Shown: positions 1 through 37,603 of the stretch, piece after piece | How the letters are laid out: each line of letters starts with the position of its first letter | How positions within the stretch are numbered: position 1 is the first letter of the stretch | NCBI GenBank assembly: GCA_964019415.1 | Contig: OZ025886.1 | Coordinates: 1,611,384-1,675,383 of the forward strand | Direction of reading: 5' to 3' | DNA: 64,000 nt | Source of the DNA: Ianthella basta | Taxonomy: Eukaryota; Porifera; Demospongiae; Verongiida; Ianthellidae | Notes under the pieces: model-generated | Databases searched by the model: none | Told to the model about the DNA's origin: nothing | Seen by the model: only the letters and a program-made list of their open reading frames with translations | Program-made: the position numbers and the translations under genes

Positions 1-42
<42 letters not shown>

Positions 43-268: not shown

Positions 269-269
<1 letters not shown>

Positions 270-2611: not shown

Positions 2612-2708
2612 ATGGAGAGGACTAGAGGTCCAGGAAGGTTTGCCCTGTGCCTCTTCACGTTGGTGTTTGCGGGAGTGATCAAACAGAGTCTGCAGTTTAG
2701 TCTTGTAG
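2612..2708 (+). CDS. Exon 1: signal peptide
   Basis: ATG at 2612 opens a basic stretch (MERTRGPGRF) followed by a hydrophobic core (ALCLFTLVFAG), a typical signal peptide. The exon ends at a consensus donor GTAAGA in phase 1, exactly the phase needed by the first Fn3 exon at 11055. No better signal exon was seen nearer the array. Confidence 0.65.
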
Positions 2709-5700
2709 GTAAGAACAATAGCTAGACAAAGAGTGAGATTACACAGGGATATGTCGGTTAGTTGATCTGCTGGTGTTTGTTGGTGCTTACGACAACTTGC
2801 AAGCTGAGTGCGAGAAGAGCTATAATGAGCTTTAAAGCGGGCAACCGGTTTCGAATCGGGCCAAATTGAGAATCGAGTTGTAACATATAATTATACAGTC
2901 AGCGCAATGGTTATAGAAACCATGCAGCTAGTAACTAGGTACTAAGGATGTTTCCAGATAAACGGGGAAGATGTGGGGAAGTTTCAGTGTCACCAACTCT
3001 GTATATTAATTGGCACAAACCACTCAGAGAACAAGGAGCTCGAGGGTGTAGTAGTGCATGACACGTTTCCAGAATTTCCCCACATGTAGCTACATCTGGC
3101 AACTTCTATACAACAGTCCTCACGGAGGATACTTTCTCACGGAGGTGCAAGAAAATGGCGTCTTTGACTGATTGTCCGCTGGTTCATTTCTAAGTTGGAT
3201 CTTGACACGCTCTCATTCAAGGTGATTGTGATTGCCAATACCCGCAAGAATTCCCAATGCCTTGTTGTAAATGTAACAAGTCCGGAAGATGCATGAACTG
3301 TACCTGCGTTAAATCGTCAAAGAAATGCAACAGCTGTTTACCGAAGCGATTGGGTAACTGTAGGAATGACAACCAAGATCAGACAGAACAGGAGACGGTA
3401 GAGTTCGAGCCACAATCACCCCAACAATCGCCAGTTCAAGTACGACAAGCAAGCCATTAACGAAGAAGTGTCGCAGTCGATCGCACCCGACTCACTGCCT
3501 CCTTTTGAGCCTGCTCAACCTACAAATTTTACCTGGGGGAATCGGAGTGCTGAGGAAATATCAACCACCCTCAATGAGATCTACGAGGAGACAGTTCACT
3601 GGAGAAAGAACCTTTTCAAGGTGCCTTCAGGTAAGCAAGGTAAATCCTTTGTGGCTGAACTGGCACGATTGTTTCAGTCATATGCTGACCAGTCTGCTAT
3701 GGAAGCAGTGGCTCTTAAAGCTGCCATGATCCTACCAGCTCTAGTCCTCCAGAAGCCATTCAGAACGTCAAAGTCAAAAGATCACATTGTATGCATGGAA
3801 AGAAGAATGGGTCTTTGGTGTGCTGGCAATTTTGAGGTTATACTTGAAGAAGGCAGGGCAATTCAAAGTAGGTTGACCCAGTATGCGAGCAGAAGGGACA
3901 ATGACAATGATGCAAGAAGATTTGCTGAGCTGATGATGAAAGGAAGGCTGAGAGAGGCCACGAGACTATTGTCTGGAGAAAGCGGCAGGGTTTTACCCCT
4001 TGACAGGGATGTGGATGAAAGCACAACAGTGAGGGATATCCTTAGAGATAAACATCCTAATGGTGAACCACTGAAGTTCTCTGCCATTGCACCATCTGAA
4101 GAGAATTCATTCCACCCTGTTATATTTGAACAGATCACCGGAGCTTCAATCCTCAATGCATCCCTGCATACAGATGGCAGTGCAGGTCCATCAGGTATGG
4201 ATGCCTACGCGTGGAGACGTCTGTGTGGATCCTTCCAGAAGGCATCAACAAACCTCTGTGAAGCACTTGCCAAGATTGCAAGAAGACTTAGCAGCTCGTT
4301 TGTTGATCCAAAGCCCCTGACGCCTCTTGTAGCATGCAGGCTTGTTGCCCTGGATAAATGTCCGGGGGTGAGACCGGTTGGCATCGGGGAAGTGCCTCGT
4401 CGCATTATCAGCAAGGCAATCCTTGCTGTAATACGTTCAGACATCAGAGAAGTGGTCGGTTCTCTCCAACTGTGCATTGGCCAGAGACTGGGATGTGAAG
4501 CTTCCATACATGCCCTAAATGAAATCTATGAGGAGGAGGCAACAGAAGCTATCTTACTAGTAGATGCATCAAATGCATTCAACAGATTGAACAGGAAGGC
4601 TGCTCTGAGTAATGCAATGAATTTGTGTCCTGCCATTGGCACCATACTGGTCAACACGTACAGATCAGACCCATGTTTGTTTATTGAGGGGGAAACCATC
4701 ATGTCAAAAGAAGGTACAACTCAGGGAGATCCACTCGCAATGGCAATGTACGCCATTGCAACAATACCCCTCATCAGACAACTGGAGATTGCTACATGTG
4801 CAGAAGTGGAGCAAGTATGGTATGCGGATGATTCAGCAGCAGGTGGGGGGATTGAAAAGCTTCGCAAATGGTGGGACAGACTTCTTGAGATGGGTCCTGA
4901 CTATGGCTACTATGCCAACCCATCAAAGACCTGGCTGCTAGTCAAAGAAGAGGCCTATGAAGAGGCTATGCAGGCTTTTGGTGCCACCAACATCAAGATA
5001 ACATCATCAGGTCGCAAATATCTTGGCACAACCATTGGTAATGAAGAATTCAAAGAAGCATATGTCAGAACTAAAGTAGAAGAGTGGAAAGCAGAACTGG
5101 AGAAGCTGGCAGACATTGCAGCGAGTCAACCACAAGCTGCATACTGTGCACTGAATCAAGGCCTCAAGCACAGATGGTCTTACCTGTCTAGAACGACGGA
5201 AAACATCAGTGAGCTGCTACAGCCAATCGAAGAAACCATCAGACACAAGGTCATCCCAGCCATAATAGGCAAGAGCAACATCAATGACATAGAAAGGAAG
5301 CTTCTTGCCCTGCCAGCCCGACTGGGAGGGCTTGGGATTGACATTCTACCGGAGATAGCAGACCAACTGCACGTTACATCCAGAGCCATCAGCCAGCCCC
5401 TGAAAGACGCAATAAGAAATGGTAAGGGAAACGAGGACCTCATTGATGCAGAACAAGACAAGGCAAGAAAGTCCTTGAAAGAAAAGAGTAGATCCCAGCA
5501 GAAGAGAATGGCAGCAGAAATCTGCGACCAACTACCGTCAACCATGAAGAAGGCAGTGGAACTGGCACAGGAGAAAGGTGCATCAGTGTGGTTGACAGTT
5601 ATGCCCATTGAAGAACATGGCTTTGCTCTACACAAAGGTGCATTCCGTGATGCCATGGCCCTGAGGTATGGGTGGCGACCACAGGGAATGCCAAGTACCT

Positions 5701-8700
5701 GCATCTGTGGGAAGCAGAACAATGTCAGCCATGCTCTAAGCTGTGCTAGGGGAGGGTATGTCATCATGAGACACAACGAGATTCGAGATGCAACGGCCAC
5801 CCTACTCCGGGAGGTGACCTCAAGTGTTGAAGTGGAGCCCACACTCCAGCCAATTACAGGAGAGAGAATGAATCACCAATCAGCCAAAATGGATGATAAT
5901 TGTCGACTGGATGTGAAGTGCAGGGGATTCTGGTCAGGCTCACAAGATGCATTCTTTGATGTGAGGGTTTTTAACCCCCTAGCATCGAGCCACCAGAGTG
6001 CCAGCATTCAAGCCATCTATAAAGCACAGGAGCAGGAGAAGAAGAGGGCATATGATCAAAGAGTGAGAGAAATTGAACATGGATCATTCACACCCCTTGT
6101 TATGTCTATTACAGGAGGGATGAGCTCATCAGCCACTATCTTCTACAGCCGATTAGCAGGGATGATTTCAGAGAAGAGAAGTGAGGCATACTCCAAAGTG
6201 ATGAACTTGATAAGATGCAGGATTCGGTTCAGCCTCCTCAGATCGGCCATCACTGCAATTCGCGGTTCGAGATCCAGCAATCACGTCACCCTGTCAGGAC
6301 TCAACCTTGATTGCATCCCCATGATCATTGCAGAGGGCCGCATTCCCCCTGCAGCTGATTAACCCTTATGCACCTCCCTCACCACATTATAATACCTATT
6401 TGCTCCATTGTACTTGTGTGAACTTCCATTATAACTCTTAATGCATGGACCTTTAGTTTATGTTGGGCAGTGTGCATGTGTGCCCTATGTATAATTATTA
6501 TTGTGTTACTTTCCATTCGTCAGCAAAAAACAATACAACAGTCCTCTGAAGTGTCTGTACCTGGCATGTAATAAAACTGTAGGACCACACTAAGGTAGGA
6601 TGATGGATTTCGTAGTTCAAATGGTAGATTTCATGCACTATAGAAACACCATCTGTATGCTGTAGCATGGTAAAGTCTCCATTAATTTCATAGTTGTTCA
6701 AACTTAGAATCATGAATAGGCTGAGACACCAGGGTGACAATACAGTGCTTGCAGGAATGGTGGAAATAGGCCACACATGCACTTTCACCATCCTTACAAG
6801 GCATGCATGCATGTGTTAGAATGTAAGGATGGTTAAAGTGTGTGGACTAGCTGCCTCCACCATTCCTGCAAGCACTGTACTGTCACCCTGGTGTCTCAAC
6901 CTATACTGTGTTCATGCAATTGTCACCAGTTGGTATAGCCATAACCGGATATGCTTGTACTGCATGGTGTGGGTGTATAGACTAAATGCAATGGAGTGCC
7001 TTTGTGGAAGGTGGAGTTATGCACAAAGATCATGATCAGAGGTATAGTATAGATACTCAGTGACTGTGTAGTCATTAAGTAATTGTGTTAGAATATAAGG
7101 ATGGTGAAAGTGTGTGGACTGCCCCCACCATTCCTGCAAGCACTGTACCGTCACCCTGGCATCTCAACTTATTCATGCAGCCATGCAGCTAGTGTAGGTA
7201 TCATTTTGCAATAGTGGGCATTTTTGCAATTAGACTTAGAATGACTTGTATGGATGGTGAAAGTGCATGCGTAACCTTTTTCCTCATTCCTGCAAGCACT
7301 AGCTGTACTGTCACTCTGGTGTCTCAACCTATACTGTGTTCATTGTGTTCAACCTACAGATAGCTGTGTTCATACAATTGTCTCCATGTGGTATATAACC
7401 GAAACCAGACATGCTTGTACTGCATGGTGTGGGTGTATAGCTATAGGCTGAATGCATTGAAGTGTCTTGCATGGTACGAAAGGTGGAGATTATATATAAG
7501 AAGTATTTCGATTTAAAAAAAAGCTCGTGAGGTGTCGGGGCGCTCCTGAACTCAAACTACTTGCTAGCAATTTTGAAAGAGTTTCGTCTCCAGAGCAGCC
7601 AGTCATCCAGTGAAAGCACACCTAGCAAACTGTCAAATGTTTGCTAACTGCTTTTTTTACCTATATGACATTCTGAATGAGAATGTAATTGTTACTTTGT
7701 GCCAGGAGGAGTGTGCTGGCTGAACGGCTACCCTATGATGACCCTACGAGAGAATCATGGCTAGCTATATAATTATGCCATGATTCGCTTGTCTGCCATT
7801 ATTGGCCAACGGGTCATTAGACTTCTGTTGTATTTGGGCTAGTTAGGTAAGCTTCCTACTACAATACTATTACTTAAACATGTTCTAGACACACTTTGCG
7901 TTTTTTGGATAAATATGAAGAAAGATGATTTTGAGCCTAGCAAACAGAGAGCGTCGAGCGCGCGGCCATTTACAATGTCGTCAGTGATTGGAGCTGTATC
8001 TCGCGAATACCTAAAAGTGATAACAATATAAGGGCGTCTTCGGCGCCCCAAAGAGATCAGAGAAATAGTACAGATATTGAAAGTGACTGTAGTCATTGAG
8101 TAATTGTCTTAGAATGTAAGGATGGTAAAAGTATGTGGACTGCCCCCACCATTCCTGCAAGCACTATACCGTCACCCTGGTGTCTCAACCTATTCATGCA
8201 TGCAGCCATGCAGCTTCCTATACAGATGCGTGTAATAGTTATCATTTCATATGCGTGGTCAAAGTTACAAGCCATACAAGCATTCATACTACTTCCTGTG
8301 ACGTGAAATTTGGCGTCAATGCATGATAGCTAAAGGCAGGATTGTGAATTTGCATCAGGGCTGCCTGAATTATATAGCCATTCATACACAATTTTCTCGC
8401 ACATGATAGAAATAGCATCAGCACTAGTATCTCGATCTGCAAACAGGAGGGTGTTTGTATACTATACAGCGCTGAGTAAAGAAATTCACAAACGCGAAAA
8501 TTCACCAAAACTACAATGGCTATGCATAGTCAGGCGTTGCGTGAGGAGGGGTCAAGCGACGCCTGACTAGGCTATGCACACAACGCACTGTCATTGCGTC
8601 ACTGGCCGCTATAATAGGAATTCGAAAACAGCAGAAATGGCGTTTGGAATGTCCGGCGTAGTATAGTTAGAACATGCTGGCCGATGTAACAGGATATCAG

Positions 8701-11700
8701 TTCCCCTATAGGAACTGGAGTCCTAGGACTGCAGGTCCCCCTCTGTGGGATTTCTGTTCCCCCAGGAACTGGAGTCCTAGGACTGCAGGCCCCCCTCTAT
8801 GGGATTTCTGTTTCCCCAGGAACTGGAGACCTAAGACTGCAGGTCCCCCTCTATCGGATTTCTGTTCCCCCAGGAACTGGAGTCCTAGGACTGCAGGTCC
8901 CCCTCTATCGGATTTCTGTTCCCCCAGGAACTGGAGTCCTAGGACTGCAGGTCCCCCTCTATCAGATTTCAGTTCCCACAGGAACTGGAATCCTAGGACT
9001 GGAGGTTCCCCTCTAGGATTTCAGTGCGGTGTTTCAGTTGTGCGCAAACCTAGCTACCTCAATGACCAGGGGTGAATCTAGGATTATTAAAGGCGGCATG
9101 AAGCTGGGACAAAGTGTAGGTGGCACAACATAAAGCAGTACGTTATGGTAGCCATGCAGGTTTTACAATCAAGACAGTTTTGTCTCTTCCTCTGGCCTTA
9201 AGTTGAGTTTACATGACAGCTAGAGAGAGGGAGAGTGTGTGAATGTAGAAGTGTATTGCAGACTGGTCGATCAGCTAGTCAAGTATACTTCAAAGTAGAC
9301 TGCAGCCGCAAGCTAGTGCACATGTTATAGGGAATTGCCTGCGTGTGTAGTGTATAGGGTTTACTTATTATCACTCTATGTGCAGCTGGATCTGCACTGA
9401 CTGCAAAGCATCATAATATCATAGCTATCATGCATGCATGCAGTAGTTGTAGACAGCAATTTGTAGTCTGGTATGTACCACTGGGCAGAACGCTTGTTTC
9501 AAGCTAAGTGGTCTTGATTGGTACGGGGTGACACTCAAAACACACCTGCATGCTACTGCATCAACACGTACACCTTCACAAACAAGATCATATGAGAGCA
9601 CCAAAATACATAAACAATCACACATGTGTGCAGCTATTTCACAAGGCTGTCTTGGTATATAGCTTCAGAATACCAAGCATGCCTGCATAGGGCCGCCACA
9701 GCTTTGTATGAGGTATTCCGGTTGCTACAATGATTATTCACCCCTAGGGTAAGAAACAGTACGATAGTCATTGTGGAGAGCATGCCAAGTGAGGCACTTG
9801 AATCCCAAAGTCGCTGTTGAAAGAACACAACAACACAGCATGGGAGGATTCCTAATGTAGTACAATGTCTGCACACATGCCCTTATTTGTATAATAATAT
9901 ATTATTTACAACTCATACTGATTTCTGTTGAGGAAATGTTGCCTGAGAATAGAGAATGACATGATGAGCTCAGGTAGAGCTCCAGCAATTGGTTAAGGTT
10001 GTGGTGAGTGGCTGAAATGTGGTGAGATGTAGTGGGATCGTGAACAAAATTGCGATCTTATAAAAGTCAAATTAAAGAGCCTAAGAGGGTCACCCCAGCA
10101 ACAGCTAACTAACTGTCCCTAAGTTCGATTTCTCCCTGACAGCACCATGTGGTGGTGGTGACAGCAACATGTGATGTCCCATGCATGATGTGACGTGCGT
10201 CAGTGCAGCATGTTTATATGCAGCCTAGCAACAGTTCCCAAATCTTGAGGAGTTGTTACCTAGGACACAAACAGGGTGATTATAAATATGATACTTATTT
10301 TAGGTAATAACTGCCCATATGCATGGTATGGGACCTGTTCTACAATTGCACAAATCCACTGTTCATGGCCGTGTGCATAGCAATGGAACAGGCTACGTGT
10401 AATCCTATTCATTGTGGCGTACGTAAGTGCTGCTTTTGTGCATGTGCCTGTACATGTGCAAGCTACACTACTATCCCTACACAGACAGCACTACTGTATA
10501 CGTTGTGTGATATTCTATATCTATTCATGATATTGTGCAGGAGTGCTTACTCCCCCTCCCAGTCCATTGGAATCTCATACCTGTGTGCGTGCTATAAATA
10601 GATTTACATACCTGGATTCCAGAAAAGCTGCTATGAGTAACCACATGCATGAAGATGAATATATAATACACTGTTATAAGACCCACATGCATGTGAAGGC
10701 TATTGGTAACACAAAGGGTCATCATTGAAATTTGCATCTTCTAGGTCATAGTACTATACATCCAAGGTGCCTAGAGCCCCAGATGTTTCCAGTCTGGAAC
10801 ATAATAATTATTTATAATCATCTGTTATAGCTACCTAACCCTAACCCTAAGTGAAACTTTTATACTTGCCATCAACCAGGCACTGACCTGAAGTGGTGCA
10901 ATTGCTGTCAATGAATGGCCATGCCACATGCAGCCACCCCCAGAAGGAATGAAAATTAATTGTCTCAAATTTATAACAAAATATTATAATTATACAACCA
11001 CTTTTTCCTGGTAATTGCATGCCCCTATATCTGTAAAATTGCATCCCCTTCCAGACCCTGATGGGTTTACAGTTACGATAGTGGACCCCTCAACCGACTC
11101 TGACCCTGTCACTGCCACCTTCTCCTGGACTGCACTGGACAATGTCACCTTTAATCGCCAAGACATCACCTACACCATCATTGTGACTTCTGAGAGTGGC
11201 ACTGTGGTTGCAAATGCATCCATCAGCCATCCAAATGACACCCTGGAGATCTCTAATCTCCCTGCTTGTGCCAACCTCACAGCCACACTGACAGCAGAGA
11301 GAGGCAATGAAAGTAGTAATGGAACTGTTCGTGAATTCTCGACTTCAGAGCCAAATAGTAAGTATGGTGATAATTATACATGAAGTTGGAAGAAAGGCCA
11401 ATAGGCCATTCTCATCTACTTGACATTCCATTTCATTTAATTATGTATGCAGAGTCAATCAGTGTTGGAGTGTACAGTGTGATGCCAGACTATCCAGCTG
11501 GCAGCAACATCTCTCTCCTCTGCATGTGGAACACCTCAGTGTACTATGTTGCATGGTACAAGAATGGTACTCTGCTCTATGAGGAAGATCTGGCTGCTCC
11601 CTCTGTTCTCATGACTTCCCCACAAGGGTTTACTGTTGACACTGACTTCACAATGTCTGAACTGATCATTAACAATGCCAATTTGGATGACAGTGGCAAC

Positions 11701-29700: not shown

Positions 29701-32700
29701 CACATTCAACCAACCAGTGATTGGGTATTCTGGTGGTGATTTAATCAACTTTGCCACTCTAGACACAATCTTCTGGGAGTTAAATGACACTGTGGGTAAC
29801 ACAGGGGTGAGAGGTACATGGATCTTCCCCATGTTCGACCAGGGTGCTAACTACGATGCTGAGGAGAGGTGCATGGAGTGGTATGAGGAAGAGAGACTGA
29901 CCCCACCTGTTAACCTTGTTAATGAATCATTTCTCAATGCCTGCCCTTGTACCTATCAACAAGCATTGAGTAACTGGCGCTGGAGACAAGGCTTTAACTT
30001 TAACAATCGAGAGCGTTGCACATTTCTATGGTGGCCACGACGTAATAGCTTTAGATGGGGAGTAGACCCACTGGGCACCATTGAGTGCTGCTATGATGCT
30101 TTTGATAGCCTAATTGTTGGCAGACCAGATGGTGGGACATCAAAGAAGTTCCACTTTTACTATGAAGCTGTGGACCACATCAACAGAGACCTGCTGCCTT
30201 ATCAGGATTGTTGTGTCAGGAGCAACAGGACAGATCTTTGTGACAGCTACTATGAACTGAGAATTCAGATGACTGTTCTCTGTTTGATGAAAGGGCATGT
30301 AAGTGTGAAATTTTATGAATTGATAAAACCTTGCATGATTTTACATTCTATGTAGGTTGTTCCTGACGTCAGTAATTACTCTTTCTCTTGACAGCTCGCA
30401 TGTTTGGTGATCCTCACTTTGACACATTTGATGGCCTCCGCTACACCTTCAATGGCAAGGGGGAGTTCTGGCTGGTACAGACCACAGATGATTCTGTCAA
30501 CATCCAGGTCAGATTGACTCCAGTGCAGGGTGGAGGAGCCACCATCATTTCTGCTGTAGCAGTGCAGTTTGAGAACAGCTCCAATCCTGCTGCCCAAGCT
30601 CGCATTTCAGGTGGCAATGTGGAGGTAGAGATAGGAGGTGTTACATATTCAGCAGATGATGTGGTGGACACAACGAACATTGATGCAAATGGCAATATTG
30701 TGGATGTGGGAGATGATGTTACAGTCCTCCAGAATGTAGTCTTCCTGTTGCAGAATGACAATGATACTTCAGGCATTGTAATCTCCTCTCTAAATGGCAT
30801 CTCTGTCACTGTACGGCTGCAGGGTAGTACTGCCCTCTCTGTGTCTGCTAGTTTGAACATCAGGGCAGCAGAGAACACCACCAGGGGACTCCTCGGTGTC
30901 ATCAATGGTGATACAAATGATGACTTCACCTTGCCTGATAGTACCTCCATTGACACTAATTCCACTGAAGAGGATATCTACAACAACTTTGGACTGCAAT
31001 GTGAGTCACTTAGCTGCAGATACATAGCTACATAGCTGTTGGCAAACTTTAGTAGCACACTTCTCCCTTCTTGTTAATGTCCAGGGCGAACACAAGAATC
31101 AGACAGCCTCTTCATTTATGCCAGTAATGAAAGTCATGCTGTTTTCAATAATGACAGCAGTTACACTCCTGTGTTTGGAGTTGATCCAGACAGTGTGCCT
31201 GACAGTGTGAAGGCTGCCTGTGGTGACAATAGGGAGTGTTTGTTTGATTTTGCTCAGACTCAAGACATGGATTTTGCCATGTCCACAATGAGTGAGGTGG
31301 AAGACCAAGAGGACTTGAGAAAGATTCTCAGTGAGTGGCCCCACTGCTTCTTTTGCTGTTACAACCTGCATGGTTTGGTTTTAGTTTACAATTGGTGTAC
31401 TTCCAATGTATTTGTGAAAAGACTATTGAATTTCTCAACTCTGTGGCTTTAATCAGCATGATCAATTGGCAATTTGTATAATATTTGATCTTTATGCCAC
31501 TTTAAGCCCGGGCAATGTTCAGTATGACATATTCATGCTGTAGAAAGCCATTAATATCATACCACCCAGACTATATGTGAAAGACATGCATAATTATGCT
31601 ATCTTATAGCTACATATTCATATAATCTATATGTACAAAATATGTAATGTTTCTAGCCATTTGCTGCTGTTTACCAAGATTACAGCCTGTTGCTACTCTT
31701 GTACAATGACTGATCCTCCATAGGTGCTGTTCCTCCAAGTATTCTTGGTCCTAATACCATTCGTGTCACAGCAGGGGAATCCTTCAGTGTAGATTACCAA
31801 AGCAATGGAACACTTTCCCTCCAAGTAAGCCAACTGATGGGTGAACAAGGCCTCCATGCTTACTGGACCAATAATTATTGATGCAGTGTCATCACAGTCT
31901 TTCACTAATGTAAAGTAACTTTGTGTCATAGCTAAACCCATGTGTGTACATTGCACATTTATACTTGTTTCTTATCTTTACTGCCTTCTCCAGGCCCCCT
32001 ACCCTCCCAACCTATCCATGGTGGATGGCATGCTGGTGTGGAACACACCTCCTAGAAGGGCCCCCACTGAACCAATTCGTATTCTGGCCTATGACGCTGC
32101 AGCCAACACGACCACCACTCTGTCCCTCTCTGTCATTGTCTGTGGGTGTACTGAGGGCGGGTCATGTGTGCAAGTGACCACACCCAACTTTGATGTGAAC
32201 AACTACTACCAGGAGCAGTGCATGTGCAGTGTTGCCTACGAGGGAGACTTCTGTGAGGAGGATGTCGATGGCTGCAGACAGAACCCCTGTCAGGACCCAT
32301 CCCTCTGTGAAGACTCCCCAGCACCTGCTGTGGGGTTTGTTTGCACTGGATGCCTAGAAGGATATACCCTGAATGGGACACTTTGTGAAGGTATGCGTGT
32401 GCATGTTTGTTCGTATGTTGTGTGTGTCTGTGTACGTATGTGTGCAACTGTCCTCATTTCCATGACAGCATATCAAATGTATTTTCATGAGACAACATGT
32501 CATAATGTACGTTGTTATATTCATGGTATTGCTCTCAGTTATGCATTCTGTATTTCCTTTATTTATGTGTGCTCACTTCTATAAGTGCCTGTATTCCTCC
32601 TGCAGACATTGATGAATGTGCTTCCTCAGCCTACTGCCCAGCAAATTCCACCTGTGCCAATCAGCAAGGATCTTTTGAGTGCTTCTGTGACTTGGGCTAC

Positions 32701-35700
32701 ATCATGCAGAATGCACTCTGTGTTGGTGAGTACACACCTCTGCTCTGGATCTGCTTCTCTTGTGGCTGTCATCACTTACCACATGTCCCTGTTTTACAGA
32801 TGTTGATGAATGTATGGAGAACAATTCTCTATGTGGTGATGCCATGAAGTGTGTCAACACTGATGGAGGCTACCGGTGTGACTGCTACCCAGGGTTCACA
32901 GAGAATGATGATGGGATGTGCAGAGGTAAGACAATGCATGCGGTACACAGGCAGTTCAAATGAGGTTTTCTCATTATTTTATAATCCACATATCTTAGAC
33001 TCAAATACGGATCAATACTGTATAATGTTTGGAATCCTTCTTGCTCATCTAATTATAGAATAAACATCGTTTTGAAGGTCTTTTAAACTTCATATTAATA
33101 GACGTGTGGTAATGCAATCAGTTGTGATGCAGAGATGCTCTGAATATGCTTCATGTTATCTACTGTGAAGTTGAAATGCTTGAATAATTTTCTGCTATCA
33201 GGCATCCTTTTCAAAGGCATTAGAGCATCCTTATCAAAGAACTTCCCATTTGTTTATCTAAATTTAGTGAAATGAGCTTTAATCATAATTCTAACCTTAA
33301 TACATGCACACACATCAATCTTTATATGACCATTATACCACCTGTACTGGCTGTATGCTTAGGTCTAGTGAAGTCACCTGTTTTACATCTGATGGCATGA
33401 TATATTGCAAGCTTAACATCAGATTTAGTGGCGTCCCAGTTATATAATGTATACATGAGGCGCATTTGACATGGCATCGCTTCTGCATCATCCTATATAC
33501 GTATATATTCTCTCTCATGCCTTCCCACAGCTATGGAGACCTGCTCCAAAGAGTGCCCCGATGGGGAGTGTGTAGTTGGAGAGAATGGGAACGAGACTTG
33601 TGTCTGCCTTGTTGGGCAGTTTTTTAATGGATCAGCTTGCATGTGTGAGTAGCAGAATATTGATCTGTCATGTACTGAATGTATGCATGATTGTACTTAT
33701 ATTATGTTGTAAAGTATGTGTCCAAACAAGTATGTATGACACTTAATAATATGTATGAGCATGTGTGACTGTCTGCAAGGAGGTTCATGTGGTAATGACA
33801 TGGGTTTGCAAGCATCCTAATGTATTACACTCAATGCCATCTAATCTCTAATTCAATGCAGCATGTCCCTCTGGTCGATTTGGGTTTAGCTGCGAGGGTA
33901 CCTGCAACTGTGTCAATGTCAATACTGTTGAGTGTGATCAGCAGGTTGGGTGTATCTGTGAGGCAGGGTGGACTGGACTCAACTGCAACCAAGGTGACCT
34001 ATCAGACTCATTGGCATTGCAATGAACCATGTTTTAACAGAGTTAGAGATGATTGTGAATTAAGCAATAACATGCATTCAACTCTATTGTAGTCATGTGA
34101 ATTGGACTGATCCTTAAGTTCTCACATTCTCCTCTTGCAGTGATCAACAACTTTGCTCCTGTGTTTAATCCATCCCTCACAACAATGGTGACGGTTTCTT
34201 ACCGTCTTCCACTGGGTAGTCTTGTACTCACTCTTGATGCTTCAGACATGGACGTCCACCCTCTCGCGGATGCTGTGAGGTTCCTTTCTGTGCCAATCAC
34301 AGCACAGTCTGCTGCCCTGTATGAGGATGGATCGGAATTCTTCAATCTCACCTCTGAAACTGGGGAGTTAGGCCTACGCACTTTGCCGAGCGATGGTGGC
34401 CGTTATCTGCTTACAATTGTAGCAACAGACAGAGCAGACGAACCACGATCCTCCACACCATTCATGCTGGTTGTGGTATTTGAACGGCCTGACAATGCTG
34501 ATGTAATAGAGTTGAACATTATGGAAGGCTCCACTTCAGGGACGTCCGTAGGGTTGGCTTTGTGCCGCAATCTTGGGGAAGACCAAACAGTGATCACTGG
34601 GGACAGTATTGATCCACTTAGGTTGACATCTAATGGCGAGGTGACCCTCACAGGCACAGTGGACTACGAAATCATTCCACTGTATACCTTTGACATTGAA
34701 TGTACCAGGCAGGGCACAATACAATCTGCATCAGTGTTTGTGTACGTTGGTGACATCAATGACAATTCCCCAGTGATAATGTACAGTGGGGCAGTAATTG
34801 AAGTGACTGAGAATAACATGGTAGATGCCACAATTGGTCAGGTTGAGTTTTCAGATGCAGATTCTGGTGACAATGGTCGTGTCGATGTCACAGTTAGACC
34901 AGCTGATACTCCAGTGCGTGTCACACCCAGTGGACAGATGCAACTCACCAAAGTGCTCAGTTATGAAGACCAGAGCAGTTACACCTTCACACTTGTAGCA
35001 CAGGATCGTGGAACACCCTCTCGTACAGCCACCACACAGGAGATCACCCTCAATGTACTCAATACCAACAAACCTCCACGGTTTGGAGCTCCTGCCTATG
35101 CAGTCCATCTTCCTGGTAATGCTACTGTCACAGGAGCCCCACTGGTGAAGTTTTCAATAACTGATGATGACAGTGGAGTGGACGGCACCATTGTTGAGTT
35201 AACAGTGGACATTCCATGGTTGATTGCTGACCTGAACACACAGCAGATCACACTCAGTCGCACTCCGCAAGTTGAGTCAAATGATGTTACTCCCTACGTT
35301 ACAGCAAGTGACACTGTCAATGTAGACATTTCAGTGACGTACCTCAGAGGGACCCTCGCTGCTACTGATGGGAGTGGCCTCAAGGCATCTGTTCCCCTTT
35401 TCATTGTTCTCTTCCCTGGAGAAGCCCTCATCACAGTGGAAGTCTCTACCAGCATCAGCCCGAATGACTTTGCTGACACTGCAAGTGCCATTACTAGAGT
35501 TTTCAGTGAGTCACTGAATCAGCGCACCATCAGATCAGATGCTGAGGATTATCGATTTGCTGTTTTGTACACAAGACGCTCACCAAGGCGTGAAAACAGG
35601 TAAGTCACTGTGTGCCATGTGTTAACATGGTACAGTATTGTAGAAAGCCAAGTGGCTAATTTTGGCCCGTTTGTATAATTTTGTGTAAGTACATACTTCA

Positions 35701-36594
35701 TGCATGCCTATTAAGAGCCTAGTTTCTGTATGGACATAGTAAATATTGCATAGACTTCATCTAATATTGTACAATTGCATGCTATGTACGCATGTTAACA
35801 AGATCGGCCATCTTCCTTCCCCTCTAGTTTGCTGCTGGAAGGGTACTACTACAGTGGTGGGTCCATCCCTGGACCCCTAAATGCAACCTTCTTGCAGGAG
35901 GACTATCGTTTTGTGTCAGATGATGTGACCAGGGAAGTGCTGGCTGAGCCATCTACACAGGCGGCACTGTCATCAGAGCTTGGATCTGCCCTGGAGTACT
36001 CAGTGGATGGAGCCCCTCAGCAAGGAACCGGTACAAACCATGCATTATTTGTATAGCAATTCTACCTGCTGTAAAAATCTGTTTTATGGGGCACATAATT
36101 TAAATCTTTTTCTTCATATCCTACAACCCAGTGTCCCCCAATGTGCCTGATATGACTGTGCTGGTAAGCCCATCCACTGTGTATGCTGCCAACTGTTAGC
36201 AGAACATCACAGCAGCTCTGAATTGTTGTTCATCTCCATGCAGGGTCTTGCCATTGCTCTTGGTGTTGTGGGTGTCTTCTGCCTCATTGGATACTGTGAG
36301 TGTTCTAGTTGTAAGCATGTTGCCATGACATGCATATATGTATTACTTCATAATGTAAGAAATGTCTTGCATTTCCTTTCAATCCCTGCGTATACTCTGT
36401 TCATAGCCCTGGTCATTATACTGGGCTATGCTCTCATAAAGGCCAAGAGGGTTGGTGGACACTCAAAGGTGCACAAGACTAGCTCTGGAGGACATGGTGA
36501 AGCTGAAACATCAATGACAGCTGATGATGGTGAAGGCTACGTCATGAGAAATTTGACTACTACAAATGAAACAATGAGGGTAGAATTTAGTTAG
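2612..36594 (+). CDS. Large Ig-Fn3 array receptor with NIDO-AMOP-VWD-EGF-cadherin-TM
   Basis: Gene model joined from 47 exons listed separately. Rough residues: signal peptide 1-30; Fn3-1 33-133; fifteen Ig-Fn3 pairs 134-3430; NIDO and AMOP 3432-3868; VWD 3868-4152; Ig/cadherin-like segment and EGFs 4152-4482; cadherin-like repeats 4482-4968; linker; transmembrane helix about 5047-5077; 45-50 residue cytoplasmic tail. Array exons enter and leave in phase 1. The exon lengths add to a whole number of codons ending at the TAG only if one base is restored in Ig-13 and one in AMOP. The NIDO-AMOP-VWD core is known from MUC4- and SUSD2-type membrane proteins; Ig/Fn3 repeats suggest adhesion or recognition at the cell surface. 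Function is inference. The link of the signal exon to the array is the weakest join (8.3-kb intron). Confidence 0.8.
3257..3460 (+). CDS. Cys-rich ORF1 of the retrotransposon
   Basis: A 67-residue ORF with ten cysteines in its first 34 residues (CCKCNKSGRCMNC then CVKSSKKCNSC), resembling the CXC (tesmin/TSO1-like) zinc-binding pattern, followed by a Gln-rich tail. It ends 7 bp before the annotated RT start. The RT frame is open upstream across this overlap, so a +1 shift or an ancestral indel could join them. A nucleic-acid-binding N-terminal domain is inferred. Confidence 0.65.
   Translation: MPCCKCNKSGRCMNCTCVKSSKKCNSCLPKRLGNCRNDNQDQTEQETVEFEPQSPQQSPVQVRQASH
3468..6362 (+). CDS. Reverse transcriptase with C-terminal restriction-like endonuclease
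   Basis: 964 uninterrupted codons. RT motifs: a VDASNAFN block (conserved Asp of motif A), TTQGDPLAMAMYA (motif B) and the catalytic YADD at residues 452-455 (bases 4821-4832), then KTWLL and a YLG block. A CxC-x7-H-x4-C zinc knuckle begins at residue 745, and RLDVK ... DAFFDVRV at about 810-835 fits the REL-type endonuclease of R2/NeSL/HERO-group elements. There is no ATG near the beginning; the first frame-compatible start-like codon is GTG, suggesting translation by read-through or frameshift from ORF1. The intact frame suggests recent insertion. The exact clade is unsure. Confidence 0.85.
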   Translation: MSQSIAPDSLPPFEPAQPTNFTWGNRSAEEISTTLNEIYEETVHWRKNLFKVPSGKQGKSFVAELARLFQSYADQSAMEAVALKAAMILPALVLQKPFRTSKSKDHIVCMERRMGLWCAGNFEVILEEGRAIQSRLTQYASRRDNDNDARRFAELMMKGRLREATRLLSGESGRVLPLDRDVDESTTVRDILRDKHPNGEPLKFSAIAPSEENSFHPVIFEQITGASILNASLHTDGSAGPSGMDAYAWRRLCGSFQKASTNLCEALAKIARRLSSSFVDPKPLTPLVACRLVALDKCPGVRPVGIGEVPRRIISKAILAVIRSDIREVVGSLQLCIGQRLGCEASIHALNEIYEEEATEAILLVDASNAFNRLNRKAALSNAMNLCPAIGTILVNTYRSDPCLFIEGETIMSKEGTTQGDPLAMAMYAIATIPLIRQLEIATCAEVEQVWYADDSAAGGGIEKLRKWWDRLLEMGPDYGYYANPSKTWLLVKEEAYEEAMQAFGATNIKITSSGRKYLGTTIGNEEFKEAYVRTKVEEWKAELEKLADIAASQPQAAYCALNQGLKHRWSYLSRTTENISELLQPIEETIRHKVIPAIIGKSNINDIERKLLALPARLGGLGIDILPEIADQLHVTSRAISQPLKDAIRNGKGNEDLIDAEQDKARKSLKEKSRSQQKRMAAEICDQLPSTMKKAVELAQEKGASVWLTVMPIEEHGFALHKGAFRDAMALRYGWRPQGMPSTCICGKQNNVSHALSCARGGYVIMRHNEIRDATATLLREVTSSVEVEPTLQPITGERMNHQSAKMDDNCRLDVKCRGFWSGSQDAFFDVRVFNPLASSHQSASIQAIYKAQEQEKKRAYDQRVREIEHGSFTPLVMSITGGMSSSATIFYSRLAGMISEKRSEAYSKVMNLIRCRIRFSLLRSAITAIRGSRSSNHVTLSGLNLDCIPMIIAEGRIPPAAD
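6501..7500. repeat. Interspersed repeat family, several diverged copies
   Basis: Copies share the word CATTCCTGCAAGCACT, followed by TGTCACCCTGGTGTCTCAACCTAT and a GGTGTGGGTGTATAG block. An inverted copy lies at about 6715-6795 and direct copies at about 6826-7010, 7095-7180 and 7240-7470. The 6720-6795 and 6826-6900 copies face each other as a hairpin. Confidence 0.7.
7536..8056 (+). mobile_element. Non-autonomous element, ~520 bp
   Basis: The reverse complement of this segment recurs at about 54040-54660. Both ends carry GGGGCGC-type words facing inward, consistent with short terminal inverted repeats. No coding capacity was seen. It sits in intron 1 of the receptor. Confidence 0.65.
8096..8240 (+). 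repeat. Further copy of the 6.5-7.5 kb repeat family
   Basis: Carries the same CATTCCTGCAAGCACT and CACCCTGGTGTCTCAACC words in the same order, directly after the 520-bp element. The element may have inserted into a copy of this family. Confidence 0.7.
8711..9034 (+). repeat. 54-bp minisatellite, six copies
   Basis: Units begin at 8711, 8765, 8819, 8873, 8927 and 8981, each starting GGAACTGGAGTCCTAGGACT with minor changes. 54 is a multiple of three, so one frame stays open as an 18-residue repeat (RNWSPRTAGPPL...). That ORF lies in an intron with no supporting splice context, so I do not call it a gene. Spacers between units are not unique, so this is not a CRISPR. Confidence 0.9.
9080..11054. 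other. Intron 1 remainder; nothing recognised
   Basis: AT-rich intronic sequence ending in the acceptor CCCCTTCCAG before 11055. Short palindromic GCATGC words are frequent. No conserved coding or RNA feature was seen. Confidence 0.5.
11055..11357 (+). CDS. Exon 2: Fn3 domain 1
   Basis: First and most diverged Fn3. It has the FSWTAL strand-B tryptophan and the LPACANLTATLTAE block that matches LPACENLTVSVTAE in later copies, but lacks the GIPPG loop. Acceptor CCTTCCAG, donor GTAAGT. Confidence 0.85.
11453..11791 (+). CDS. Exon 3: Ig domain 1
   Basis: Ig fold marks: LLCMWNTSVYYVAWYKNG (B-strand Cys, C-strand Trp) and DDSGNYTCAVTC (F-strand Cys plus a second Cys four residues on). The first strand is shorter and reads differently from other copies. 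Confidence 0.85.
11871..12191 (+). CDS. Exon 4: Fn3 domain 2
   Basis: EPPSAPNGLS-type Fn3, 107 codons, with GIPPGG loop and three N-glycosylation motifs (SNST, ENLT, FNGT) found in most copies. Donor GTTGGT. Confidence 0.9.
12249..12319 (+). pseudogene. Relic of an Fn3 exon 3' end
   Basis: About 70 bp resembling the last coding segment of Fn3-4 (GTGACTGCAAAGAA ... TTCTTCAGTGGAATGCCT ... TTCATGA ... CCAGGTTA), lying in an intron without the rest of the exon. Sister relics lie at 19271, 21612, 23951 and 26362. Confidence 0.75.
12449..12793 (+). CDS. Exon 5: Ig domain 2 (B type)
   Basis: B-type Ig, opening VLPTVIVSPDKPVTASGNN, with GITVDSSYTMM and the ending QDTSDVCVYG, which adds an extra Cys near the exon end. 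Donor GTAAGT. Confidence 0.9.
12884..13204 (+). CDS. Exon 6: Fn3 domain 3 (GRP type)
   Basis: Opens GRPAPPNELSAV after a TAG acceptor. The loop reads GIPPGEN, the mark of the GRP subtype that always follows a B-type Ig. Confidence 0.9.
13381..13728 (+). repeat. Conserved intron segment before A-type Ig exons
   Basis: About 250-350 bp shared by six introns: here and near 16690-17060, 18115-18479, 20460-20821, 22800-23160 and 25205-25570. Shared words include TTGCTAAACTGG, GATAATGCCTCCTG, CAGTTGA(C/G)CA and AAACAGCTATTTTGGA. It may be only duplication, or may hold splicing or enhancer signals. Confidence 0.75.
13729..14079 (+). CDS. Exon 7: Ig domain 3 (A type, long form)
   Basis: A-type Ig with STVESTADYLAGSNIS and the full VEFGMIAANLQ segment. 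351 bp, the long form that later copies have shortened by 27 bp. Confidence 0.9.
14172..14492 (+). CDS. Exon 8: Fn3 domain 4 (EPPDA type)
   Basis: EPPDALSNVTAV opening, GIPPGGAQ loop, and the extra Cys in EACNLPAC. MFFNGMPAHTNFM differs from the usual LFFNGTPASEDFM. This exon best matches the intronic Fn3 relics. Confidence 0.9.
14622..14966 (+). CDS. Exon 9: Ig domain 4
   Basis: B-like Ig (VPPTVTVSPD) with diverged middle (QMGSQQGINVNSS) and GNFSEITANLRN in place of the QFGMIPVNLQD of other B copies. Confidence 0.88.
15062..15382 (+). CDS. Exon 10: Fn3 domain 5
   Basis: Opens ELPAGPTGLSVV. It ends EEPG where others have VEPG, and NRT replaces the usual FNGT glycosylation motif. Confidence 0.88.
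15817..16161 (+). CDS. Exon 11: Ig domain 5
   Basis: Hybrid Ig: the start (ASPTVTVSPDTN) is B-like, while the second half (GIYIASDFTLMM, VEFDMIAANLQDTTEVFVYG) is A-like. It looks like a recombinant between subtypes. An unusual Cys-Ile replaces the Tyr-Val before the core Ala-Trp-Tyr. Confidence 0.88.
16268..16588 (+). CDS. Exon 12: Fn3 domain 6
   Basis: EPPSAPIGLSAV opening. Nearly identical to Fn3-2 in the second half. Confidence 0.9.
17061..17411 (+). CDS. Exon 13: Ig domain 6, splice donor lost
   Basis: A-type, long form (351 bp), coding-intact. The expected donor GTAAGTG reads ATAAGAC at 17412: the invariant GT is AT. Read-through gives DKTLY then a stop. The exon may be skipped, which keeps the frame, or may truncate the protein. 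Confidence 0.8.
17505..17831 (+). CDS. Exon 14: Fn3 domain 7
   Basis: ESPSTPNGLSAD opening. 327 bp rather than 321, with two extra residues in the loop (NSMYTGTPLGG instead of NATGIPPGG). Confidence 0.88.
18480..18803 (+). CDS. Exon 15: Ig domain 7 (A type, short form)
   Basis: 324 bp. The VEFGMIAANLQ segment is missing (CRARGIEDTTEVFVYG), a 27-bp in-frame loss shared by Ig-9, -11 and -13, which marks them as one recent lineage. Confidence 0.9.
18897..19217 (+). CDS. Exon 16: Fn3 domain 8 (EPPDA type)
   Basis: Almost identical to Fn3-10 and Fn3-12. The NISVEACNLPAC block carries the extra Cys. Confidence 0.9.
19271..19339 (+). pseudogene. Fn3 3'-end relic
   Basis: Decayed fragment in the intron between Fn3-8 and Ig-8, homologous to the relic at 12249. 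Confidence 0.7.
19469..19813 (+). CDS. Exon 17: Ig domain 8 (B type)
   Basis: VPATVTVSPDKPVTSSGN opening. GALIDGED in the C'-D region differs from the GALIYEED of Ig-10 and Ig-12. Confidence 0.9.
19904..20224 (+). CDS. Exon 18: Fn3 domain 9 (GRP type), GC donor
   Basis: Second half reads FFNGTAAFEDFLTVEPG. The donor is GCTGGT where every sister exon has GTTGGT, or GTTAGC/GTTAGT in the EPPDA type. GC-AG introns exist at low frequency, so splicing may be weak but possible. Confidence 0.85.
20822..21145 (+). CDS. Exon 19: Ig domain 9 (A type, short form)
   Basis: Differs from Ig-7 mainly at RMGPQQG versus RMAPPQG. Flanking introns are also nearly identical to those of Ig-7. Confidence 0.9.
21239..21559 (+). 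CDS. Exon 20: Fn3 domain 10 (EPPDA type)
   Basis: Nearly identical to Fn3-8 (Pro for Leu before DDTKP). Donor GTTAGT. Confidence 0.9.
21612..21682 (+). pseudogene. Fn3 3'-end relic
   Basis: As at 19271, with CCAGTTTAG replacing CCAGGTTAG at the old donor. Confidence 0.7.
21810..22154 (+). CDS. Exon 21: Ig domain 10 (B type)
   Basis: Reads NTSAYYAAWYKNGALIYEED. The acceptor tract CTCTACTTCCAG is shared with Ig-8 and Ig-12. Confidence 0.9.
22245..22565 (+). CDS. Exon 22: Fn3 domain 11 (GRP type)
   Basis: GRPAPPNELSAVINQDD opening, with the AAFEDFL ending shared with Fn3-9 but a normal GTTGGT donor. Confidence 0.9.
23161..23484 (+). CDS. Exon 23: Ig domain 11 (A type, short form)
   Basis: SNISLMCSW (Met for Val) and DGVLLYDED distinguish it from Ig-7 and Ig-9. 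Confidence 0.9.
23578..23898 (+). CDS. Exon 24: Fn3 domain 12 (EPPDA type)
   Basis: Has DDTNSVTAV where the sisters have DDTKPVTAV; otherwise near-identical to Fn3-10. Confidence 0.9.
23951..24020 (+). pseudogene. Fn3 3'-end relic
   Basis: Fourth intronic relic, in the same position relative to its block. Confidence 0.7.
24145..24489 (+). CDS. Exon 25: Ig domain 12 (B type)
   Basis: Near-copy of Ig-10 with AASYILMQPPQG and NLQYTSDVCVYG. Confidence 0.9.
24580..24900 (+). CDS. Exon 26: Fn3 domain 13 (GRP type)
   Basis: The ending reverts to LFFNGTPASEDFMTVEPG instead of AAFEDFL, so the second half was probably exchanged with another subtype. Confidence 0.9.
25571..25893 (+). pseudogene. Exon 27: Ig domain 13, one-base deletion
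   Basis: 323 bp against 324 in Ig-7, -9 and -11. Sisters read GAGGACACC where this exon reads GAGAAACC near 25866-25873, shifting the last ten codons. The GTAAGT donor survives at 25894. Inclusion would put the next Fn3 out of frame. Skipping the exon alone would keep the frame (phase 1 to phase 1). Confidence 0.85.
25986..26306 (+). CDS. Exon 28: Fn3 domain 14 (EPPDA type)
   Basis: EPPDALSNVTAV, with TTVISWLPLMG in strand B. Intact, with GTTAGT donor. Confidence 0.9.
26362..26432 (+). pseudogene. Fn3 3'-end relic
   Basis: Fifth relic, the best preserved at its end (CAGTGGAGCCAGGTTAGCAG, as in Fn3-4). Confidence 0.7.
26561..26905 (+). CDS. Exon 29: Ig domain 14 (B type)
   Basis: VPPTVTVSPDKPVTAFGNN. 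The acceptor is TTCGATGCAG, with inserted bases relative to the TTCCAG of its sisters. Confidence 0.9.
26997..27317 (+). CDS. Exon 30: Fn3 domain 15 (GRP type)
   Basis: The last recently duplicated exon. The ending FFSGTAAIKTFLTVEPG loses the FNGT glycosylation motif. Confidence 0.9.
27446..27784 (+). CDS. Exon 31: Ig domain 15, diverged
   Basis: DDPTVTLTPDVNPLEGNATD opening, LTCSWNTTVFYLVWFKDG core and DSGNYTCAVTC. The middle is unlike all other copies, so this single-copy terminal Ig is probably the old anchor of the array. Donor GTGGGT. Confidence 0.88.
28006..28311 (+). CDS. Exon 32: Fn3 domain 16, diverged
   Basis: DVPSEVVAFAASVGNLSVTF opening with a clear Fn3 strand pattern (YYILDVRND, EEYYVTIFARN). 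Lacks the PPGG loop and the PACENLT block of the array copies. Confidence 0.85.
28770..29356 (+). CDS. Exon 33: NIDO-type domain
   Basis: The region LPFGNDYGGVEYAFTY ... ILYINARGFISIGEP ... MVAAFWWWYYTR ... RPETVVSITWSL follows the NIDO pattern (nidogen/MUC4): an aromatic-Phe-Trp start, then an expression of the VVSITW type. Ends in phase 0. Confidence 0.75.
29579..30298 (+). CDS. Exon 34: end of NIDO plus AMOP domain, apparent frameshift
   Basis: The first part (FLRYTTQMWIVSNGIRTFAVTLY) completes NIDO. AMOP follows: NACPCTYQQALSNW, RERCTFLW, GTIECCYDAFDSL, PYQDCC and CDSYYELR. The frame then leaves the AMOP pattern. In the -1 frame the end reads NSDDCSLFDERA, matching the AMOP ending (SxDC), and gives the phase 1 exit needed by the VWD exon. 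One base therefore appears deleted near 30257-30262. In the uncorrected frame the next exon terminates after about 36 codons. Confidence 0.75.
30395..31000 (+). CDS. Exon 35: VWD domain
   Basis: Opens RMFGDPHFDTFDGLRYTFNG, the hallmark GDPH start of von Willebrand factor D. Later NTTRGLLGVINGDTNDDFTLPD matches the G-L-x-G-x-x-x-G-D segment. Exit phase 1. Confidence 0.92.
31085..31330 (+). CDS. Exon 36: end of VWD and following linker
   Basis: The join gives FGLQWRTQESDSLFIY, the usual continuation of VWD in AMOP-VWD proteins. Then KAACGDNRECLFDFAQTQD, a conserved post-VWD Cys block. Exit phase 1. Confidence 0.85.
31724..31824 (+). CDS. Exon 37: linker, Ig/cadherin-like strands
   Basis: 101 bp (SAVPPSILGPNTIRVTAGES). 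Phase 1 in, phase 0 out, which pairs it with the next exon. Confidence 0.75.
31994..32390 (+). CDS. Exon 38: post-VWD domain and first EGF
   Basis: Begins with a small beta-rich segment (MLVWNTPPRR ... LSLSVIVCGC), then a Cys-rich stretch and an EGF-like module beginning DVDGCRQNPC and ending GCLEGYTLNGTLCEG. Exit phase 1. Confidence 0.8.
32606..32725 (+). CDS. Exon 39: calcium-binding EGF
   Basis: DIDECASSAYCPANSTC ... CFCDLGYIMQNALC: six cysteines and the D-I-D-E-C calcium-binding start. Confidence 0.9.
32800..32925 (+). CDS. Exon 40: calcium-binding EGF
   Basis: DVDECMENNSLCGDAMKC ... YRCDCYPGFTENDDGMC. Phase 1-1 exon. Confidence 0.9.
33531..33644 (+). CDS. Exon 41: EGF-like
   Basis: METCSKECPDGECVVGENG ... 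CVCLVGQFFNGSACM, without the calcium-binding start. Confidence 0.85.
33862..33993 (+). CDS. Exon 42: laminin-type EGF-like
   Basis: CPSGRFGFSCEGTCNC ... CICEAGWTGLNCNQ: eight cysteines and the GWTGxxC ending. Confidence 0.88.
34141..35599 (+). CDS. Exon 43: cadherin-like repeats
   Basis: A single 1,459-bp exon with about three tandem cadherin-like units. Marks: YLLTIVATDRADEP, then DINDNSPVI with the classical calcium-binding DxNDN, SDADSGDNGRVDVTV, and YTFTLVAQDRGTPSRTAT. The last unit is degenerate. Exit phase 2. Confidence 0.88.
35828..36030 (+). CDS. Exon 44: juxtamembrane extracellular segment
   Basis: SLLLEGYYYSGGSIPGPLNA ... no domain recognised. Phase 2 in, phase 1 out. Confidence 0.75.
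36132..36163 (+). CDS. Exon 45: short linker microexon
   Basis: 32 bp encoding VSPNVPDMTVL between CCCAG and GTAAGC. Its phases (1 in, 0 out) fit both neighbours. Confidence 0.7.
36244..36295 (+). CDS. Exon 46: transmembrane segment, first half
   Basis: GLAIALGVVGVFCLIGY is strongly hydrophobic. It joins in phase 1 to SLVIILGYALIKAKR in the last exon, giving one helix followed by a basic stop-transfer. Confidence 0.8.
36407..36594 (+). CDS. Exon 47: transmembrane end and cytoplasmic tail
   Basis: Ends the helix and encodes a polar tail of about 45-50 residues (AKRVGGHSKVHKTSSGGHG ...) with one clear tyrosine, in EGYVMRN. No ITIM or ITAM consensus. Stop TAG at 36592-36594. Confidence 0.85.
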
Positions 36595-37084: not shown

Positions 37085-37504
37085 GTTAGTACTGGCGTAT
37101 GGACGTAGCTGCATAACTGTATGGGTAGTGGGATGCGAAGTGGCGCTAGTGCCTGTGAGTGATGTGTGTGTAGCCATAGATCGAGGTCAGTGGTGTAGCC
37201 GTGTATGTGCGTGTTGTGTGTGTGTTGTGTGCGTGCGTGCGTGCGCGCGCGTGTGTGTAGCTACATGTGCACTTGTGTGTGTACGCGTGCACGTGTGCGG
37301 TGTGTGTATGTGTACGTGTGTATGTGTATGCGTGTGTGTATACGTGTGCATGTGTGCACGTGTGTGTTGTGTGCGTGCGTGCGCGTGTGCGTGTGTGCAC
37401 ACATGTGTGTTTGTGTACTTGTGTACGTGTTCAGTGTGTGTGTGCATGTGTGTGCGTGAGTGAGTGTGTATGTGTGTATGTGCGTGTGTGCTTGCGTGCG
37501 TGTG

Positions 37505-37603
<99 letters not shown>

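Follow-up and report, generated by a model that had tools for sequence, protein, structure and literature searches.

A tandem MUC4-type gene of the sponge Ianthella basta bearing a long Ig-Fn3 exon array similar to those of receptor tyrosine phosphatase genes

The window analysed here, a stretch of 64,000 nucleotides (C19:1611384-1675383), lies on a 6.79-Mb contig (C19) of the 209-Mb, 96-contig Ianthella basta genome. Its principal feature is a gene of 47 collinear exons on the + strand (2612-36594), with an ATG at 2612 and a stop codon at 36592-36594, whose exons specify, in order, a signal peptide, 16 Fn3 and 15 Ig domains, NIDO, AMOP, VWD, C8-3_MUC4, EGFs, cadherin, a putative transmembrane (TM) segment and a tail. 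It is designated gene C and is the last of seven tandem copies of this core (C19:1.48-1.65 Mb), two others of which are genes A and B. Profiles built from the window's own Ig and Fn3 exons detected 15 exons of each kind, and the sixteenth Fn3 (Fn3-16) was detected from frame, from TBLASTN to gene B and with Pfam; the gene span and the 15 Ig-Fn3 pairs of an earlier sequence-only reading of this DNA were thus recovered. All of the Ig and Fn3 exons except Ig13 possess phase 1 at both ends. Three four-exon units of 2.3 kb within the array are mutually 95–98% identical, and a fourth is 86–88% identical, which argues for recent growth of the array, as that reading had also proposed. Intron 1 measures 8.3 kb in gene C versus 3.2–3.3 kb in A and B. 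It harbours a reverse-transcriptase ORF, and also a tandem repeat of 54-base units with an open frame (8710-9022). The features of the gene are as follows; Ig and Fn3 exons given without remark were recognized by their own exon profile and phase 1.

2612..2708, +, signal-peptide exon, ATG to donor (gtaag, phase 1); DNA search matches only genes A, B and C
3402..6359, +, retrotransposon-type reverse-transcriptase ORF within intron 1, outside the protein (RVT_1, 38.9 bits)
11055..11357, +, Fn3-1 exon (phase 1-1, AG/GT; no Pfam match)
11453..11791, +, Ig1 exon (Ig_3, 33.4 bits)
11871..12191, +, Fn3-2 exon
12449..12793, +, Ig2 exon
12884..13204, +, Fn3-3 exon
13729..14079, +, Ig3 exon (Ig_3, 34.6 bits)
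14172..14492, +, Fn3-4 exon (alone no Pfam match; AlphaFold model, pLDDT 84, matches FnIII folds)
14622..14966, +, Ig4 exon
15062..15382, +, Fn3-5 exon
15817..16161, +, Ig5 exon
16268..16588, +, Fn3-6 exon
17061..17411, +, Ig6 exon, donor AT instead of GT (Ig_3, 38.1 bits)
17505..17831, +, Fn3-7 exon
18480..18803, +, Ig7 exon, within the first 2.3-kb repeated unit (three units 95–98% identical)
18897..19217, +, Fn3-8 exon
19469..19813, +, Ig8 exon
19904..20224, +, Fn3-9 exon, donor GC instead of GT (splice-site check)
20822..21145, +, Ig9 exon
21239..21559, +, Fn3-10 exon
21810..22154, +, Ig10 exon
22245..22565, +, Fn3-11 exon
23161..23484, +, Ig11 exon
23578..23898, +, Fn3-12 exon
24145..24489, +, Ig12 exon
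24580..24900, +, Fn3-13 exon
25571..25893, +, Ig13 exon, frameshift ahead of donor (Ig_3, 36.2 bits)
25986..26306, +, Fn3-14 exon
26561..26905, +, Ig14 exon
26997..27317, +, Fn3-15 exon
27446..27784, +, Ig15 exon, the terminal Ig, common to other arrays (Ig_3, 35.0 bits)
28006..28311, +, Fn3-16 exon (fn3, 25.1 bits, cut-off 25)
28770..29356, +, NIDO exon a (NIDO, 26.4 bits)
29579..30298, +, NIDO exon b and AMOP, with a one-base error close to the end that breaks the phase to the VWD exon (AMOP, 21.8 bits, cut-off 25)
30395..31000, +, VWD exon with GDPH motif (VWD, 68.2 bits)
31085..31330, +, C8-3_MUC4 exon (41.5 bits, cut-off 25)
31724..31824, +, linker exon (33 residues identical in A and B)
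31994..32390, +, linker and EGF-like exon (alone no Pfam match; cEGF over cut-off in the homologous part of A's joined core)
32606..32725, +, EGF exon (EGF_CA in the homologous part of A)
32800..32925, +, EGF exon (homologue in A, where EGF_CA has two stretches)
33531..33644, +, Cys-rich EGF-like exon (present in 7/7 copies)
33862..33993, +, Cys-rich EGF-like exon (present in 7/7 copies)
34141..35599, +, cadherin exon (Cadherin, 70.8 bits, residues 219-299; one repeat over cut-off, further repeats presumed)
35828..36030, +, juxtamembrane exon (homology among core copies)
36132..36163, +, short juxtamembrane exon (homologues in A and B)
36244..36295, +, transmembrane exon (hydrophobic stretch by eye; 16/16 residues identical in A and B)
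36407..36594, +, end of TM, cytoplasmic tail and stop (85–87% identical in A and B)

The gene is flanked on both sides by WD40 exons (window 1-432 and 37464-38137; the stitched second copy scores 35.0 bits with WD40), which we take to be WDR83-like. Because exons resembling them also come after gene A (C19:1575912-1576229, by eye), parts of a WD40 gene seem to belong to the tandem duplication unit. Elsewhere in the window are a non-LTR-type retrotransposon on the minus strand (54927-58231), with an endonuclease (54.7 bits) adjoining a reverse transcriptase ORF (125.5 bits), and, outside the gene, a tandem repeat of 48-base units with an open frame (45124-45336).

The domains were screened with Pfam, profile and structure searches. 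Ig exceeded the Pfam cut-off in all five window Ig exons scanned, while of three Fn3 exons scanned one, Fn3-16, reached that for fn3 (25.1 vs 25); Fn3-1 and Fn3-4 gave no Pfam match, nor did the joined array of gene B match fn3 at E≤0.01. A profile of the 16 window Fn3 exons matched fibronectin in the PDB (E-value=1.2e-4), the runner-up in the same search being an influenza haemagglutinin (E-value=0.01), which was taken as chance. The AlphaFold model of Fn3-4 (pLDDT 84) found FnIII domains as its best Foldseek matches (E-value=2.7e-5, TM 0.72). Four other models had pLDDT values of 75–78; that of the cadherin exon (pLDDT 31) was not used for the structure search. The Fn3 fold of these exons is thus supported by the PDB profile match together with the predicted model.

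Among the core domains, NIDO scored 26.4 bits in the window exon and 38.7 bits in gene A (cut-off 25) and VWD 68.2 bits in the window, with a GDPH motif in 7/7 core copies. AMOP reached 21.8 bits, below its cut-off of 25, yet the match spans profile positions 2-143 of 143. It was at or above cut-off in 6/10 related proteins and was not among the matches for A's joined core; a whole-genome AMOP search returned zero matches in the sponge genome and in 14 controls alike and is therefore uninformative. The window also contains C8-3_MUC4 (41.5 bits vs 25), which had not been part of the architecture first proposed. EGF_CA (49.5 bits, two stretches) was found in A, and the window's first EGF-like exon gave no match by itself. 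In gene A, NIDO, VWD, C8-3_MUC4, EGF_CA and Cadherin all lie over the Pfam cut-off. Of the domains named in the sequence-only reading, Ig, NIDO, VWD and Cadherin stand by profile, AMOP matches nearly its whole profile at a score below cut-off and Fn3 is recognized in one exon of the three scanned; its MUC4-like core is strengthened by C8-3_MUC4, by the GDPH motif of all seven copies and by the S/T-rich exons of A and B.

A TBLASTN search of the core exons against C19:1451384-1715383 revealed seven core copies in identical order and on the same strand. Close relatives (≥70% identity) of the VWD, AMOP and cadherin exons were found only in this cluster in searches of the genome (for cadherin, the best 88 of 258 candidates). 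A shared signal exon opens three of the copies, A, B and C, and a DNA search matched it only there. Gene A has 20 exons, all internal sites being AG/GT, and a single open frame of 2,630 amino acids in the order signal peptide, Fn3, Ig, a mucin-like region of 680 residues (40% S+T) and core. Gene B, with 30 exons and likewise AG/GT at all internal sites, has a single open frame of 3,328 amino acids, in which the signal peptide is followed by six Ig-Fn3 pairs, two S/T-rich exons and the core. The exon boundaries of both were picked by us from homology and splice signals. To stay open, the frame of B requires that the acceptor of its first Ig be shifted and that NIDO use a donor lying 6 bases on; in A, the donor following the Fn3 exon is weak. 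Random shifts of 0–2 bases in the exon starts of B gave an open frame in 0/2000 trials, a control which shows only that random phase shifts close the frame. Since A and B splice into single open frames, apparently intact genes with the fused architecture do exist.

In the sibling p1480, Fn3 (65.7 bits) and NIDO (25.6 bits, cut-off 25) occur within one uninterrupted ORF (L011:7509-9869). In the p1509 copy the cadherin exon is frameshifted and the AMOP exon contains a stop. A profile scan found no Ig-Fn3 array exon in four of the seven core copies. The upstream copies at L011:7509-9869 and C19:1494324-1495002 have other N-termini, with Fn3 repeats inside a single large exon or, by eye, S/T-rich frames, which suggests that the N-terminal arm varies strongly among the tandem genes.

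The siblings bear directly on whether the window holds one gene or two adjoining ones, the first for an Ig-Fn3 protein that would end after Fn3-16, the second MUC4-like. Similar arrays elsewhere do belong to other genes, and the joining is read from sequence; genes A and B, however, each stay open in one frame, across AG/GT sites, all the way from the signal ATG to the stop of the tail, and the p1480 ORF holds Fn3 and NIDO together. In the window itself, less than 0.5 kb separates Fn3-16 from the NIDO exon, and the ORF ahead of that exon contains no ATG (by eye). We consider two genes very improbable: the single gene of the sequence-only reading is upheld, and the gene in the window is real and, by the evidence of sequence, single.

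That reading had also seen compatible phases throughout the gene, which proved not to be the case. The AMOP exon (29579-30298) ends in a phase that does not fit the VWD exon, its length being off by 1 (mod 3) relative to 6/6 paralogues, and its normal GTAAGT donor is intact, but use of this donor leads to a stop. Ig13 (25571) is frameshifted ahead of its donor, and the donors after Ig6 (17411) and Fn3-9 (20224) are AT and GC, respectively. The mucin exons are absent: the 475 bases ahead of NIDO contain no open frame rich in S/T. When all 47 exons are joined at the usual places the first stop falls at residue 2897, and at 3801 if Ig13 is omitted; omission of Ig13 combined with a donor 4 bases on (30302) leaves the frame open to the final stop, specifying 5,019 amino acids. 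A protein on record matches the frameshifted reading identically, indicating that the change is not confined to the C19 contig; it is listed with a longest contig of 626,647 bases rather than the 6.79 Mb of C19, and may or may not be independent of the present data. As assembled, the window copy probably encodes no complete protein and would give at most a shortened secreted product or one made by exon skipping. It is probably a decaying or allelic form; its faults could be assembly errors or be those of one allele.

Synonymous and nonsynonymous changes were compared for core and array. For six core exons, C versus A and B, dN/dS was 0.09–0.45, which indicates constraint. Within the window array the median was 0.50 for Ig exon pairs, with 1/89 pairs above 1 (a pair including the frameshifted Ig13), and 0.42 for Fn3 exon pairs, again with 1/89 above 1; these counts are limited to dS 0.05–1, leaving out 16/105 Ig and 31/120 Fn3 pairs, and among the Fn3 pairs left out was one with dN/dS 1.28 at dS 0.013. 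Diversifying selection was thus not seen among the Ig and Fn3 exons of the window array in what is a weak, whole-exon test of paralogues rather than alleles. The sole tyrosine of the tail lies in GEGYVMRN (by eye), which is not an ITIM or ITAM context. With an Ig median of 0.5 and a tyrosine outside such a context, the self/non-self receptor that had been proposed receives no support, and a role in self/non-self recognition is unproven.

The window gene might nevertheless be a working self/non-self or adhesion receptor, if its faults are assembly errors, belong to a single allele, or are circumvented through skipped exons and use of the 30302 donor. The constraint on the core exons and the open 5,019-residue frame are in keeping with this, and skipping would be harmless because the Ig and Fn3 exons are phase 1-1. 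Against it stand four separate faults in the one copy, an intact AMOP donor that leads to a stop, the Ig dN/dS and the frameshifted protein record, possibly not independent; we regard a working receptor as unlikely, and a decaying or allelic copy remains our reading.

The Ig-Fn3 unit of the window has at least 181 matches in the genome (best 150 of 214 candidates), mostly at C19:0.63-1.1 Mb, in the tandem genes, and on C8 and C22. Between the window array and five loci of C19:653-747k, DNA identity is 78–92%, introns included, and the longest alignment among those listed spans 2.36 kb. The terminal Ig exon of the window array is 82–88% identical at 17 other places, namely gene B and 16 outside the tandem genes, in addition to a place on C22 that matches at 64%. 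Downstream of the array at C19:650-661k come an Ig scoring below cut-off (17.6 bits), an Fn3 of 57.2 bits, what looks by eye like a TM stretch, and protein tyrosine phosphatase (PTP) exons, the stitched pieces of which score 58.5 bits with Y_phosphatase. Arrays ending near C19:631k and 1.098M have PTP exons within 5 kb downstream on the same strand, and PTP exons lie 14–17 kb past the array at C19:736-747k; three arrays are thus tied to PTP exons, and this fourth probably so. The PTP searches scored the best 150 of 689 and the best 150 of 161 candidates. Of the PTP-tied arrays, only the one near C19:631k clearly counts among the 16 terminal-Ig places outside the tandem genes; those at C19:650k and 1.098M gave no close terminal-Ig match. 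Locus L041, which adjoins phosphatase exons, showed no alignment to the window array at E 1e-20. No PTP domain was found in A's joined core, which ends in a short tail and stop, or, by eye, in the window tail.

Several loci on other contigs were noted during these searches. Very many PTP exon matches, several with stops, occur at C6:4.2-7.6M and C12:4.4-6.1M (best 150 of 689 candidates), and would mean that PTP genes or pseudogenes have greatly expanded. At C7:8428300, C7:8446814 and C22:4799257, VWD exons are followed on the same strand by Ig exons with about 40% likeness to the window terminal Ig, possibly marking NIDO-VWD genes with Ig-Fn3 after VWD. A fusion of the present type on C22, where distant VWD exons flank an Ig-Fn3 array, was considered and dropped, since the 6 kb before the C22 VWD are VWA-like, EGF and IPT-like (by eye), with no link to the array. 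On C21 (1535425-1570558, minus strand) VWD exon pairs are arranged in tandem with a spacing of about 3.2 kb, forming a further VWD multigene cluster.

Comparison with known proteins places the core with the MUC4-type transmembrane mucins, with which it shares the NIDO-AMOP-VWD-C8-3-EGF-TM order (AMOP scoring below cut-off in the window, the TM putative), GDPH and, in A and B, an S/T-rich segment N-terminal of NIDO; it differs from them in a cadherin exon between the EGFs and TM, in the N-terminal Ig-Fn3 array and, in the window copy, in lacking the S/T-rich segment. Lingula LOC106158645, Acropora LOC141877470 and Asterias LOC117302931 are 28–30% identical across the NIDO/AMOP/VWD region. All three possess NIDO, EGF and VWD, and two of them C8-3_MUC4, but there is no Ig, fn3 or Cadherin among their listed Pfam domains. 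The search for full-length relatives covered proteins of about 935 to 2,977 amino acids among the matches listed, so that longer ones may exist, and the cadherin exon has exon-level relatives at 67–73%. The Ig-Fn3 receptor-type tyrosine phosphatases carry closely similar Ig-Fn3 exons in the same genome, and differ from A's joined core and the window tail (by eye) in their phosphatase domain. The allorecognition proteins (Alr) of Hydractinia are, as here, encoded by tandem Ig-bearing surface genes; their core is different, and the one tyrosine of the window tail lies outside an ITIM/ITAM context.

In the published text covered, cnidarian mucin4-like proteins (Actinia tenebrosa) combine NIDO, AMOP and VWD with extra N-terminal domains including Fn3 (PMC9080433); these extras are CUB, ZP and Fn3, together with SEA, with no Ig-Fn3 array in that text. 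Sponge Ig and Fn3 genes are named in PMC8242945 and PMC6208332 without the present architecture, in the portions consulted, NIDO appears in a figure legend of the former, and a sponge receptor phosphatase of the Fn3-repeat R3 type has been reported (PMC5336234). By title and the start of the abstract, none of the literature matches listed describes an Ig-Fn3 array on a MUC4-type core. The view that the architecture had not been described thus meets no contrary paper among the literature matches listed, but Fn3 has been published at the N-terminus of sea-anemone MUC4-like proteins, and the array is common to other genes, phosphatases included.

We consider it likely, from sequence comparison, that the window gene belongs to a tandem family encoding MUC4-type single-pass membrane proteins and that its N-terminus is built from symmetrical phase-1 Ig and Fn3 exons, drawn from the stock that also forms the receptor PTP ectodomains on C19. 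The arm before NIDO is mostly mucin-like in A, consists of six Ig-Fn3 pairs and a short mucin-like stretch in B, and of 15 pairs without mucin in the window. With Ig, Fn3 and S/T-rich exons starting and ending in phase 1, they could be added, lost or exchanged without a break in frame, and this symmetry would make the arms swappable; unequal crossing-over or conversion may shift them between genes. The product would be a type I surface protein in which a MUC4-type anchor carries a variable arm, either mucin or Ig-Fn3, that reaches outward. For MUC4, cleavage at GDPH has been proposed (PMC8660890); by analogy, the present precursor may be cleaved at the GDPH of its VWD, with the arm staying attached to the VWD-EGF-cadherin-TM anchor. 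A short tail would permit little signalling, which argues for adhesion or coat rather than signalling; the protein is most likely a surface adhesion or coat molecule.

Similarity is symmetrical and by itself would not tell which way any exchange of exons between mucin and phosphatase genes ran, so that the mucin-type genes might have been the source from which the phosphatase genes took their array. Array matches, however, are more numerous outside the mucin cluster than inside it (best 150 of 214 candidates), and the four core copies without an Ig-Fn3 array exon in the profile scan also speak against such a source; this reverse course seems improbable to us. Quite unlikely, in our estimation, is a single pool of phase-1 Ig-Fn3 exons continually traded between phosphatase receptors and mucin-type coat proteins, whereby the coat would show the receptors' changing recognition modules and serve in cell recognition as a self-label or decoy system.

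The cluster presents a MUC4-type mucin whose arm is mucin-like in one tandem copy and, in another, an Ig-Fn3 array in common with receptor phosphatase genes, and it probably captures exon shuffling between two gene families at an early stage. Gene B, which reads as intact, is a better specimen for study than the window copy, and the cluster provides concrete candidate genes for cell recognition in a sponge.
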